NCBI RefSeq assembly: GCF_900109615.1
Contig: NZ_FOIX01000001.1
Location: forward strand, 434,001-498,000
Origin: Kaistella antarctica
GTDB lineage: Bacteria; Bacteroidota; Bacteroidia; Flavobacteriales; Weeksellaceae
Direction of reading: 5' to 3'
Length of the DNA stretch: 64,000 bases
Part shown: positions 35,299-45,715 of the stretch, one piece after another
Layout of the letters: every line of letters begins with the position of its first letter
How positions within the stretch are numbered: position 1 is the stretch's first letter
Notes under the pieces: generated by a model
Database searches by the model: none
What the model was told of the DNA's origin: nothing
What the model saw: the letters and a program-made list of their open reading frames with translations, nothing else
Translations under genes and position numbers: made by a program

Positions 35299-36042
35299 AT
35301 GTTAAAAATTAACAATTTACACGCAAGAATCCAAGACGGAGCAGAAATTTTAAAAGGAATCAATCTACAAATCAATCCAGGCGAGGTTCACGCGATTATG
35401 GGACCAAACGGAGCGGGAAAATCTACGCTGGCTTCCGTTGTTGCCGGAAAAGATGATTATGAAGTGACCGAGGGTGAAATCCTTTTTGAAGGAAATAACA
35501 TTATCGAAGATGCTCCTGAAGATAGAGCGCACAAAGGAATTTTCATGTCTTTCCAGTATCCAGTCGAAATTCCTGGAGTTACCGTTACCAACTTTATCAA
35601 AGCAGCCATTAATGAAAACCGAAAAGCAAAAGGTCTAGAAAATATGCCCGCAAAAGAAATGTTGGCTTTGGTTAAAGAAAACTCTGAAAAATTAAATATC
35701 AAAAGAGATTTCCTGATGCGTTCTCTGAACCAAGGATTTTCTGGTGGTGAGAAAAAGAGAAATGAAATTTTCCAGATGATGATGCTGAATCCAAAACTAG
35801 CCATCCTTGATGAAACCGATTCTGGATTAGATATCGATGCACTAAGAATTGTAGCCGACGGTGTTAATTCGTTTAGACAAGAAGGCAACGCAGTTTTGTT
35901 AATCACTCATTACCAAAGACTTTTAGAATACGTTCAGCCAGATTTCGTCCACGTTTTAGCCGATGGAAAAATCATCAAAACTGGTGATAAATCTTTAGCT
36001 TTAGAATTAGAAGACAAAGGATACGATTGGCTACTTAATTAA
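35299..36042 (+). CDS. sufC: Fe-S assembly ATPase SufC
   Basis: 247-aa ABC-type ATPase. Walker A is GPNGAGKST (about residues 35-43), the signature is in FSGGEKKRNEIFQ (about 148-160), Walker B is LAILDETDSGLDID, and the H-loop is LITHYQR. It powers conformational change in the SufBC2D complex. The stop codon is directly abutted by the left inverted repeat of the inserted cassette. Confidence 0.97.
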   Translation: MLKINNLHARIQDGAEILKGINLQINPGEVHAIMGPNGAGKSTLASVVAGKDDYEVTEGEILFEGNNIIEDAPEDRAHKGIFMSFQYPVEIPGVTVTNFIKAAINENRKAKGLENMPAKEMLALVKENSEKLNIKRDFLMRSLNQGFSGGEKKRNEIFQMMMLNPKLAILDETDSGLDIDALRIVADGVNSFRQEGNAVLLITHYQRLLEYVQPDFVHVLADGKIIKTGDKSLALELEDKGYDWLLN

Positions 36043-36072
36043 TTTGAAATTTGATGTTTGAAATTTGATATT
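36043..36072 (+). repeat. Left terminal inverted repeat of the four-helix-bundle cassette
   Basis: 30 nt: TTTGAAATTTGAT, one G, the same 13-mer again, then ATT. It starts at the base after the sufC stop codon and ends just before the ATG of the inserted gene. The reverse complement of 36497-36526 matches with four A/T mismatches in 30 positions. Confidence 0.85.
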
Positions 36073-36483
36073 ATGCCAACGATAAAAAACTTCGAAGATT
36101 TAGAAATTTGGCAAAAATCAAGAATACTTTGTCAAAATATAGACAGGCATTGTCTTAAAAATAACAAATTTCAAAAACATGATCAAAATCAAATCGATCG
36201 CTCTTCTGCTTCTGCTTCTGTGATGGATAATATTGCTGAAGGTTTTGAGAGGGAAGGAAACAGAGAATTTGCAAATTTTCTTACCATGTCGAAAGGATCT
36301 GCAGGAGAAGTCCGTTCTCAATTAATTAGAGCATTCGATCGAAATTATTTAGACGAAAGTACTTTTTTAATGCTTAAAGATGAAGCAATCAACATGTCCA
36401 AAAAGCTTTCTGGATTTATTAATTATCTTAAAAATTCGGAAGATAAAGGCAATAAATTTAATAGGAATAAAGAAAATGAATGA
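36073..36483 (+). CDS. Four-helix-bundle protein (23S rRNA intervening-sequence type)
   Basis: 136-aa protein of the S23/IVP four-helix-bundle family. The ATG of MPTIKNFEDLEIWQKSR is chosen; a TTG five codons upstream is inside the repeat. Family hallmarks are DLEIWQK, QIDRSSASASVMDNIAEGF near residues 40-58, then EFANFLTMSKGSAGEVRSQL. In other bacteria these proteins are encoded in intervening sequences of 23S rRNA or next to diversity-generating retroelements; no enzyme activity is known. Here it interrupts the suf operon between sufC and sufD and is flanked by inverted repeats. Whether it affects suf expression is unknown. Confidence 0.88.
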   Translation: MPTIKNFEDLEIWQKSRILCQNIDRHCLKNNKFQKHDQNQIDRSSASASVMDNIAEGFEREGNREFANFLTMSKGSAGEVRSQLIRAFDRNYLDESTFLMLKDEAINMSKKLSGFINYLKNSEDKGNKFNRNKENE

Positions 36484-36496
36484 TGTTTGAGCCCAC

Positions 36497-36526
36497 AATT
36501 TCAAATATCAAACTTCAAATATCAAA
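36497..36526 (-). repeat. Right terminal inverted repeat of the four-helix-bundle cassette
   Basis: 30 nt which, on the minus strand, read TTTGATATTTGAA, G, the same 13-mer again, then ATT. It ends 6 nt before the sufD start codon. Same length and layout as the left repeat, in opposite orientation. Confidence 0.85.
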
Positions 36527-36532
36527 TATATA

Positions 36533-37852
36533 ATGGCTCTATTAGAAAATATACAAAATAATCACACTGCTTTTTTAGAAACGCTTCAACACCGTTTTCT
36601 GGATGAGACCCGAAATGCTTCCTTGAAAAAGTTTTTTCATTTGGGTTTACCAACTAAAAAAGACGAGGAATACAAATACACCAACTTAAGAGAAATCACC
36701 GAAAAGAATTATAATTTCTTTCCGAAAGAAGCGCACACGATTTCAAAAGAACAAATTGACGAACTGCATTTGGGCGAAGAAAACTTCGACTGGATCGTCT
36801 TTGTTAATGGTAAATTACACAAAGAATTATCAAAAATATCAATTGGTAATGTCGAATTGCTGTCTTTCAATTATGCTTTAAATGATCCTCAACACAAAGA
36901 TGTTTTTGATCAGTATTTCGATACGATTGCAGATAAGAATTTAGCTTTCACCAACTTGAATACGGCGTATTGCAAAATGGGCTTTTTCTTAAAGGTGCCT
37001 AAGAATGTCGTTATCGAAAAACCGATACACGTTTTCTATATCTCTCAAAATCAAGATGAAAATACTTTTTACAACACCCGTAATTTACTGGTAGCTGAAG
37101 AAGGTTCTAAAATTGAAGTGATCGAAAGTCACCATAATTTTGATGATACTTACGTTTTCACCAACTCTGTTACTGAGATTTTTACTTACCAGAATGCGAA
37201 AGCAGATTGGCACAAATTGCAAAATGACAGCAACACCTCCTACATGATGGATCACACTTTTGCGAAACAAGAACGTGATAGTTTGACGACGGTAAATACG
37301 TTTTCTTTTGGTGGAAAATTGGTGCGAAACAATTTAGATTTCATTCATAATGGCGAGAATATCAACTCCTTTATGAACGGAATTACAATCATAGGCGACG
37401 ATCAACTGGTCGATCATCATACGGCCGTTCACCATAAAACGCCACATTGCGAAAGTTACCAAAACTACAAAGGAATTTACAAAGACCATTCTCGCGGAGT
37501 GTTCAACGGAAAAGTTTTCGTAGATAAAATCGCGCAGAAAACCAATGCTTATCAGCAAAACAATAATATTCTGCTCGATGAAGGTGCCAGTGTTGACACC
37601 AAACCACAACTCGAGATTTTTGCAGATGATGTAAAATGCTCGCACGGTTGTACGGTCGGTCAACTCAATGAAGATGCCATGTTCTACTTCCGTTCGCGAG
37701 GAATTTCGAAAAAGGAAGCGCAGGCAATGTTGTTATTTGCGTTTGCCAATGATGCGATGGAAAATATCGATATCGAACCGTTGAGAGTGAAAATCTCTAA
37801 GCTTCTGGCCGAAAAACTAGGAGTTGATATGTCGTTTGATGACGTTTATTAG
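36533..37852 (+). CDS. sufD: Fe-S cluster assembly protein SufD
   Basis: 439-aa SufD, partner of SufB in the scaffold complex. Typical features: LPTKKDEEYKYTNL near the start, the beta-helix core, and the C-terminal SHGCTVGQLNEDAMFYFRSRGI with the conserved His/Cys pair and KKEAQAMLLFAFA. Usually it directly follows sufC; here a 490-nt gap contains the four-helix-bundle cassette. No sufS or sufE follows: a terminator comes next. Confidence 0.96.
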   Translation: MALLENIQNNHTAFLETLQHRFLDETRNASLKKFFHLGLPTKKDEEYKYTNLREITEKNYNFFPKEAHTISKEQIDELHLGEENFDWIVFVNGKLHKELSKISIGNVELLSFNYALNDPQHKDVFDQYFDTIADKNLAFTNLNTAYCKMGFFLKVPKNVVIEKPIHVFYISQNQDENTFYNTRNLLVAEEGSKIEVIESHHNFDDTYVFTNSVTEIFTYQNAKADWHKLQNDSNTSYMMDHTFAKQERDSLTTVNTFSFGGKLVRNNLDFIHNGENINSFMNGITIIGDDQLVDHHTAVHHKTPHCESYQNYKGIYKDHSRGVFNGKVFVDKIAQKTNAYQQNNNILLDEGASVDTKPQLEIFADDVKCSHGCTVGQLNEDAMFYFRSRGISKKEAQAMLLFAFANDAMENIDIEPLRVKISKLLAEKLGVDMSFDDVY

Positions 37853-43188: not shown

Positions 43189-43988
43189 ATGAATAAATTG
43201 CAAGCTTTTCTATTTTCTATTTTCTATTTTCACTTTTCATCGGATTGATTTGTATTAATGCGCAGCAAACTATTGATTTTGAATATGCTCCACCTCAAAA
43301 CTCTCATTTTATCATCAATAATAAAACTGAAACGGTTGGAACGGTGAAAATAAGTGGTGATAAAGCAGAAATGGAAGCACTCAAAAAAATTGGCTATAAC
43401 CAAGATCGAAAAATGAGTTATGAGTTTGATATAGATGTTAATATGAAAACTTTTGAAAAAACTGAAGAATCATTCCCGTTCGAATTTAATTATGAGAAAA
43501 TAAAAATTGATGTGGATAGTGATGGTAAGAAAAATAACCAACTCCTTTCTTTTTCTGATATTACGATAAGTGGTGATTTAAGAAAAGACAAAGAAGTAAT
43601 CACTCATATCTCCCAATCTGGCGAGGACGCGAAAGATAATTTTATAAAATCGATGCCGAGGGAATTTTTACGTCAGATTATTTCTAAAAAAAGCATGAAA
43701 GTCGGAGATCAATTTATCTTTGAAAAAGCAATGCAGTCTGCTACTGCTCAATTTAAAATAAATGGGACTTTCTCTTATACTTTAAAGAAAATCGATCCAG
43801 AAGTAGCCTACTTTGAGATCATAATTAACTTGAAAAACGATCAAGACAGTTCGATGGTATTATCCGGAAATGGTACTGGAGAAATGGTCTACAACCATAT
43901 TAACCACTATGTGCTTTCAGAAAACACAACGTCGAATATTGAGGCTAGTAAAATTGAAAGACCTTCAAGATTGAGGTTCAAACTTTGA
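43189..43988 (+). CDS. Secreted protein of unknown function, signal peptide out of frame (possible phase variation)
   Basis: The main open frame (43245-43988, 247 codons) has only a TTG at its start and begins with the tail of a signal peptide (GLICINAQQ). The natural ATG is at 43189, but that frame hits a stop after 19 codons (MNKLQAFLFSIFYFHFSSD). Between them are three CTATTTT heptamers. Adding one heptamer, or one base, joins the frames into MNKLQAFLFSIFYFLF followed by SLFIGLICINAQQ, an excellent signal peptide. The mature part (about 235 aa) is beta-rich, with SGNGTGEMVYN near the end, and may resemble DUF6263-type proteins. Could also be a recent frameshift or a sequencing error. Confidence 0.65.
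43210..43230 (+). repeat. Heptamer tandem repeat (CTATTTT)x3 in a signal-peptide coding region
   Basis: Three perfect CTATTTT units followed by a degenerate CACTTTT unit and preceded by TTTT. Since 7 is not a multiple of 3, gain or loss of one unit shifts the reading frame of the gene that starts at 43189. Confidence 0.9.
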
Positions 43989-45520: not shown

Positions 45521-45611
45521 TTCTGAAATTTTGTGGTTGCAAAGATAAAGAAAAATGAACCAAGTTAAAAGAATCAATTTTGCGGTGTAAAGACGACTGA
45601 AACTTTATTAT

Positions 45612-45715
45612 AGTCCCGATTGCAACGGCATCCTTTTTTGAGGCGGAACGACGAGGAAAAGATAGAGTGGAAAGCGGGTGAGAGCTTGATAAGAAATGAA
45701 AATGGTGGTGCTCCT
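45612..45715 (+). ncRNA. Structured repeat/RNA-like element
   Basis: Non-coding stretch TAGTCCCGATTGCAACGGC... to ...GTGGAAAGCGGG (45612-45678), followed by GAGAGC and GTGCTCCTAATAA (to about 45715). CCCG (45615-45618) can pair with CGGG (45675-45678); inside, ATC(C)TTTT can pair with AAAAGAT, leaving conserved-looking internal loops (TTGCAACGGC and GTGGAAAG). I recall very similar sequences as a dispersed intergenic element in Flavobacteriia genomes, possibly the Flavo-1 RNA family, but cannot verify this here. Strand is chosen by that resemblance. Confidence 0.45.

Follow-up and report, generated by a model that had tools for sequence, protein, structure and literature searches.

The sufC–sufD junction and its cassette

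The window (the whole stretch of 64,000 nucleotides of the Kaistella antarctica genome that was analysed) contains suf genes whose products SufB, SufC, and SufD were identified from NCBIfam. The following features lie at the junction of sufC and sufD:

35299..36042 (+): sufC, upstream flank (TIGR01978)
36043..36072 (+): left arm, four tandem heptads TTTGAWR followed by ATT, beginning 1 nt past the sufC stop
36073..36483 (+): IVP gene (S23, four-helix-bundle), 136 amino acids (PF05635, TIGR02436)
36497..36526 (-): right arm, four heptads, inverted, ending 6 nt short of sufD
36533..37852 (+): sufD, downstream flank (TIGR01981)

An earlier note on this DNA had described these coordinates, the 136-residue IVP gene, and two inverted 30-nt arms identical at 26 of 30 positions, all of which were confirmed on the sequence. 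The repetition that it saw within each arm is also present, but four heptads (TTTGAAA TTTGATG TTTGAAA TTTGATA) describe it better than a doubled 13-mer does. The four mismatches between the arms fall on the alternating A/T of every heptad and are accordingly spaced 7 nt apart. Exact TTTGAWRTTTGAW has 14 matches genome-wide, six of them at the suf locus, and the pattern read backwards has three; the inverted flank score of the locus is 42. No rRNA was detected at gathering score within the window, and the cassette lies between sufC and sufD, not inside an rRNA gene. A microhomology at the left border, between the TA of the sufC stop and the TAG of the repeat, is suggestive only.

The IVP scores 89.1 bits against PF05635 (cut-off 33.8) and 87.9 bits against TIGR02436. 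Its structure was predicted with a pLDDT of 88.7, the nearest solved folds being 2gsc and 2rld; a sequence search of the PDB returned 2gsc as the only match (E 0.01). No family was assigned by PADLOC to the three IVPs tested, and a phage search with one IVP query gave no match at E 1e-3. The protein is under purifying selection (77% protein identity where 22 of 30 four-fold positions differ). We know of no established function for PF05635 proteins.

IVP copies and their repeat arrays

Seven IVP genes are present in the K. antarctica genome, at seven different places. All seven loci have an inverted flank match (scores 24–61) with a clear period, which is 7 nt at six loci and 8 nt at one, and the repeat units, as read by eye, differ at every locus (TAGGTNG, GTTGTCR, ATAGAYG, AGTTGAA, TTTGAWR, TGATGTGA, and AAGTAAA/AAGARCC). 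A strict array detector (threshold 16) reports both arms at one of these seven loci only and therefore undercounts. Among the matches listed, every one of the 36 genus genomes has IVP matches (1–11 each), and PF05635 was matched in 90 of the 118 genomes of a phylum sample, 87 of them above the family cut-off.

The flanks of IVP genes were compared with those of 52 control genes, taken from the window. The best lag was 7 or 14 nt in both flanks at 35 of 58 distinct genus IVP loci, versus three of the 52 control genes, and an inverted flank score of at least 24 was reached by 43/58 genus loci, 88/1141 mismatched pairs, and 4/52 control genes. For the phylum loci (26 of 29, analysed without L105, L120, and L128), both flanks had period 7/14 in 14 cases and period 8 in four, and the inverted-score threshold was reached by 14/26 versus 15/498. 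At the named loci (79 of 80, without L192), period 7/14 was found in both flanks at 49, upstream at 70, and downstream at 55; the inverted-score threshold was reached by 57/79 versus 246/1556, and 22 of the 79 lay below it. Over the relatives and the named genomes together, clear arrays in both arms accompany 127 of 178 distinct copies, 51 being without them.

The same layout is seen in cyanobacterial plasmid copies and in a 23S rRNA IVS of Azospirillum. Ten cyanobacterial plasmid copies were examined among 39 plasmid records with an IVP match: L273, L274, L275, L277, L279, and L281 have inverted scores of 30–63, and L272, L276, L278, and L280 scores of just 15–22. A Gemmatirosa copy carries octad arrays (score 61), and an Azospirillum copy (L282) lies within 23S rRNA (Rfam LSU) and has heptad arms identical at 31 of 36 positions. 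The unit length could be called clearly in 152 of 190 copies, and was 7 nt in 131, 8 nt in 17, 9 nt in three, and 6 nt in one.

Insertion sites and orientation

The 178 distinct copies were sorted by homology of both flanking genes into 58 site groups. With 43 and 38 copies, the two junctions next to an acetyl-CoA acyltransferase gene are the most frequent sites, in part because we sampled this locus ourselves; of the 76 named copies, which had been chosen by likeness to alignment A2, 26 and 18 also lie there. Cassettes are also found at carA–carB, at a methionine synthase junction, and, on two plasmids, at cas6–cas4. From translations only, groES–groEL and wzm–wzt were judged to be filled too. 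Between co-directional genes, 144 of 146 copies run in the direction of the operon. Counted per site group, 38 are co-directional, two opposed, and six placed between convergent genes, with none between divergent genes.

Some of these sites have features of their own. In K. antarctica itself (L003:1462-2886, C2), an IVP cassette separates the pieces in which methionine synthase is encoded. The two cyanobacterial plasmid cassettes at cas6–cas4 (L274 and L277) lie in CRISPR loci and have strong inverted heptad arrays.

Empty sites, remnants, and history

The sufC, acyltransferase, and carA genes are present in all 36 genus genomes, and 30 loci of each were compared. The sufC–sufD junction is filled in six of 30 genomes, in two of them with an apparently frameshifted gene; the upstream and downstream junctions of the acyltransferase gene are filled in 10/30 and 21/30, and carA–carB in 11/30. 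At sufC–sufD the 24 junctions of relatives that lack the gene measure 49–102 nt, which does not bear out the statement that the two genes normally abut. On a tree of the 23 of 36 genomes for which all three loci were compared, the minimum numbers of presence changes are 3 (sufC–sufD), 6 (upstream), 4 (downstream), and 6 (carA–carB); shuffled labels gave 3.8, 6.2, 6.1, and 6.7 in the same order, near the observed values.

Some junctions hold traces of the cassette. As read by eye, array-like arms and just the first bases of the gene remain in L142 and L143, and in L158, L159, and L160 the arrays remain and the gene is gone. K. antarctica has a solo GTTGATA array where L094, L095, and L097 hold a cassette. 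L148 and its close relative L151 make a clean pair at one site, where L148 is filled and L151 has a short heptad-free junction; the neighbouring cassette is present in both. Several empty sufC–sufD junctions contain heptad-like traces, so that loss seems frequent.

The closest intact pair at sufC–sufD, K. antarctica and G013, shares 95% identity in the cassette and 86–87% in the flanks; four-fold positions differ at 9/37 in the IVP gene versus 38/86 and 36/94 in the flanks. The cassette copy of G034 has diverged about as far as its flanks. The cassette at sufC–sufD seems to be old, with repeated loss, rather than freshly inserted, and lateral transfer at this junction is weakly supported.

Other genes were seen at junctions used by IVP cassettes. 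In relatives, carA–carB also holds a Bro-N protein or a PF00144 serine hydrolase, and a DUF1016/YhcG nuclease follows the acyltransferase gene in one relative. The coordinates of these single genes are:

L187:643-1467 (-): other single gene at an IVP junction
L134:2706-3710 (+): other single gene at an IVP junction
L170:2580-3623 (+): other single gene at an IVP junction

The left array in L187 is nearly identical to that of the IVP cassette in L186. A Y1 transposase gene lies just 5′ of the acyltransferase gene in G000 (C5:764777-765121) and likewise in G006, G016, and G029; other species carry IVP cassettes at this junction, which therefore attracts elements of more than one kind.

Joint behaviour of gene and arrays

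Array similarity was compared with protein identity for the 127 of 178 copies with clear arrays. For pairs at different sites, the median array similarity is 13 at 40–50% protein identity, 24.2 at 60–70% (66 pairs), and 33 at 70–80% (nine pairs); for pairs at the same site it is 15.8 at 40–50% identity (422 pairs). Different-site pairs of at least 60% identity have a mean of 25.4, and none of 500 permutations was as high (maximum 18.7). Over all pairs at different sites, protein and array correlate only modestly (r 0.20). Among unlike proteins, the arrays of a pair resemble each other slightly more when the site is shared than when it differs (16.5 versus 13.7). Five of 17 protein clusters occupy more than one site. 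Period-8 copies require seven changes on the protein tree, versus 13 or more in 1000 shuffles, and a clade of six proteins (approximately 55–62% identical, four site groups) has kept period 8 while its array sequences, by eye, differ.

Array sequence and unit length thus vary with the clade to which the IVP protein belongs rather than with the site, and it follows that gene and arrays travel together: they are one unit, and the junctions it occupies differ between species. Agreement of array and protein is also expected from co-inheritance alone, and the IVP may be a putative reader of its array.

Interpretation and alternative explanations

We consider it probable, with some reserve, that the unit is a mobile cassette of the IVS type outside rRNA, consisting of an IVP gene with inverted arrays of short repeats as its ends. 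Its movement is inferred from sequence comparison and unproven: visual comparison of filled with empty junctions established no target-site duplication, the intercistronic sequence being replaced or too diverged, and no movement was seen. In the mechanism that we propose, the arrays would be the ends of the element at the DNA level, bound by an oligomeric IVP with approximately one repeat per subunit, and the IVP itself would act as the mobility or end-binding factor. Insertion into transcribed intercistronic DNA would rely on host replication or repair. Tandem slippage and copying between the inverted arms could keep the two ends alike while the repeat drifts, and pairing of the arms in the transcript, followed by cleavage by RNase III, might allow the operon to tolerate the insertion.

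Two other roles for the arrays were set aside. Because of the inversion of the downstream arm, the motif occurs on the mRNA strand upstream only; this disfavours, as a sole role, a TRAP-like ring that would read repeats in mRNA. Heptad-like traces at empty sufC–sufD junctions had suggested that the arrays might be duplicated target sequence; this was given up, since heptad-free junctions exist (L151, L166-L168) and the arrays follow the protein.

That the gene is an ancestral suf operon member, retained through descent and regulated by the repeats, is very improbable. The age of the cassette at sufC–sufD, as judged from the G034 copy that diverged like its flanks, and the purifying selection on the IVP would both fit an operon member. 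Against it, the cassette is missing from sufC–sufD in 24 of 30 relatives, K. antarctica has seven copies at seven places, the copies fall into 58 site groups, and presence is polymorphic at sufC–sufD and three other junctions. The earlier note had named as its own refutation a gene found at this site in all relatives with no other copies; the absences and the copies elsewhere are the opposite pattern, and agree with its proposal of a small mobile cassette with terminal inverted repeats. Its further suggestion of movement in trans is not supported in the form of an ordinary MITE with shared ends, as the terminal repeats differ at all seven loci of the genome. A MITE-like non-autonomous element that depends on a transposase (IS or Y1/REP-type) acting in trans would share the short length, the terminal inverted repeats, and the deletion derivatives, and Y1_Tnp genes occur in 30 of 36 genus genomes; with no common end sequence, and seven different repeats at seven loci, we hold this to be unlikely. 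Moreover, G011, G015, G019, G025, G031, and G033 have no Y1_Tnp and yet carry IVPs (four with 5–7 matches and two with one, among the matches listed), although carriage is not proof of movement in those hosts and the point is not decisive. Delivery of cassette RNA by an Avd-like IVP to a reverse transcriptase in trans is quite unlikely: RVT_1 was found in 16 of 36 genus genomes and in none of the other 20, so that a reverse transcriptase is not required for carriage. The single RVT_1 match of K. antarctica (L191:1087-2751 (-), C3), on another contig, is a DRT2-type defence reverse transcriptase (408 bits), which speaks against the route via RNA that had been thought possible.

Alternatively, the unit could be an RNA-processing device, in which selection for a stem that RNase III cleaves keeps the arms similar. 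The arms of the suf cassette are paired in the MFE fold, and rRNA IVSs are excised by RNase III according to the available part of PMC4990558. If pairing in RNA were what is selected, mismatches should lean towards G.U; in 152 of 178 copies (86 after dereplication), 91 mismatches were of the wobble type versus 112 of the A.C type (fraction 0.45, bootstrap 0.38–0.52), and the fold of the whole cassette has a z of -0.91. We regard this explanation as decidedly improbable on its own, and RNA processing can accompany the mobile cassette as a second effect. Microsatellites that arose by slippage and lie beside IVP genes by coincidence are hardly credible. Among long tandem units, heptamers are reported as the most frequent in many genomes, and polymerase slippage has been proposed for them (PMC4679880, PMC4692102, as far as the accessible text of each goes). 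At a looser threshold solo arrays do occur away from IVPs: 464 kb contain six in addition to both arms of the suf cassette, versus two in shuffled sequence from 400 kb. Coincidence does not account for the periodic flanks at 35/58 IVP loci versus 3/52 control genes, for arms that are inverted and matched, or for a sequence and period that track the protein clade.

Relation to known systems

The suf cassette resembles the 23S rRNA IVSs (S23p/IVP; Coxiella, accessible part of PMC4990558; Azospirillum, L282) in protein family, in size (approximately 430–500 nt), and in its terminal inverted repeats. In the Coxiella 23S IVS, heptameric repeats precede the S23p ORF (same part of PMC4990558), and the Azospirillum 23S IVS has heptad arrays at both ends, like the suf cassette. 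The 23S rRNA IVSs lie in an rRNA helix, whereas the suf cassette lies between cistrons of an operon; it also differs in that its IVP is under purifying selection and in that each copy has a repeat of its own. IVPs are present in the rRNA insertions of CPR bacteria, as stated in the portion available of PMC11270868. Avd, of the diversity-generating retroelements, has a four-helix-bundle fold similar to that of IVP at a sequence identity of 6%, a likeness noted in print (PMC10053308, in the section available), but the single RVT_1 match of the genome with the suf cassette is not of the DGR type. MITEs and REP/RAYT elements share with the cassette the short length, inverted ends, and deletion derivatives; the cassette differs in having no common end sequence, a gene of its own, and tandem-array ends.

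The cyanobacterial STRR heptads are tandem, degenerate 7-nt intergenic units, as in IVP arrays, a likeness in form only. Degenerate heptads in trnL P6b pair across a hairpin (PMC3488679, accessible text); cyanobacterial plasmid IVPs carry heptad arrays of this form, and the same accessible text makes no mention of IVPs. A link of STRRs and P6b to IVP cassettes is a lead. Intergenic heptad arrays are also described for Xanthomonas and Nostoc (GGGNATC, in Xanthomonas often as inverted pairs) and for Beggiatoaceae (TAACTGA); the available parts of PMC4692102 and PMC4679880 mention no association with an IVP.

In the full-text literature, with most subscription papers outside coverage, no intercistronic IVP cassettes or heptad ends were found described. 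To our knowledge, 23S IVSs have been called selfish and have no known way of moving, and the bacterial heptad arrays that have been catalogued have no agreed explanation. IVPs, IVSs, and heptad arrays each become directly testable when they are tied to a single cassette for which there are defined ends as well as empty sites and remnants. For annotation, an IVP gene within an operon is probably an insertion and not an operon member.

A broader reading is offered tentatively and seems to us rather doubtful: IVP cassettes might form a minimal self-sufficient class of mobile elements in which one ring-forming protein serves as the mobility factor, reads tandem units of 7–8 nt at both ends (one per subunit), and builds or maintains the arrays. 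If this were true, the classic IVSs of 23S rRNA, the heptads of cyanobacteria, and many of the orphan heptad arrays in bacteria would belong to this one class, descend from it as remnants, or be produced by it.

Elsewhere in the window, TTTTCTA heptads open a coding region at 43201-43242 (+) and have no strong inverted partner, and a Flavo-1 RNA (53 bits) lies at 45608-45685 (+).
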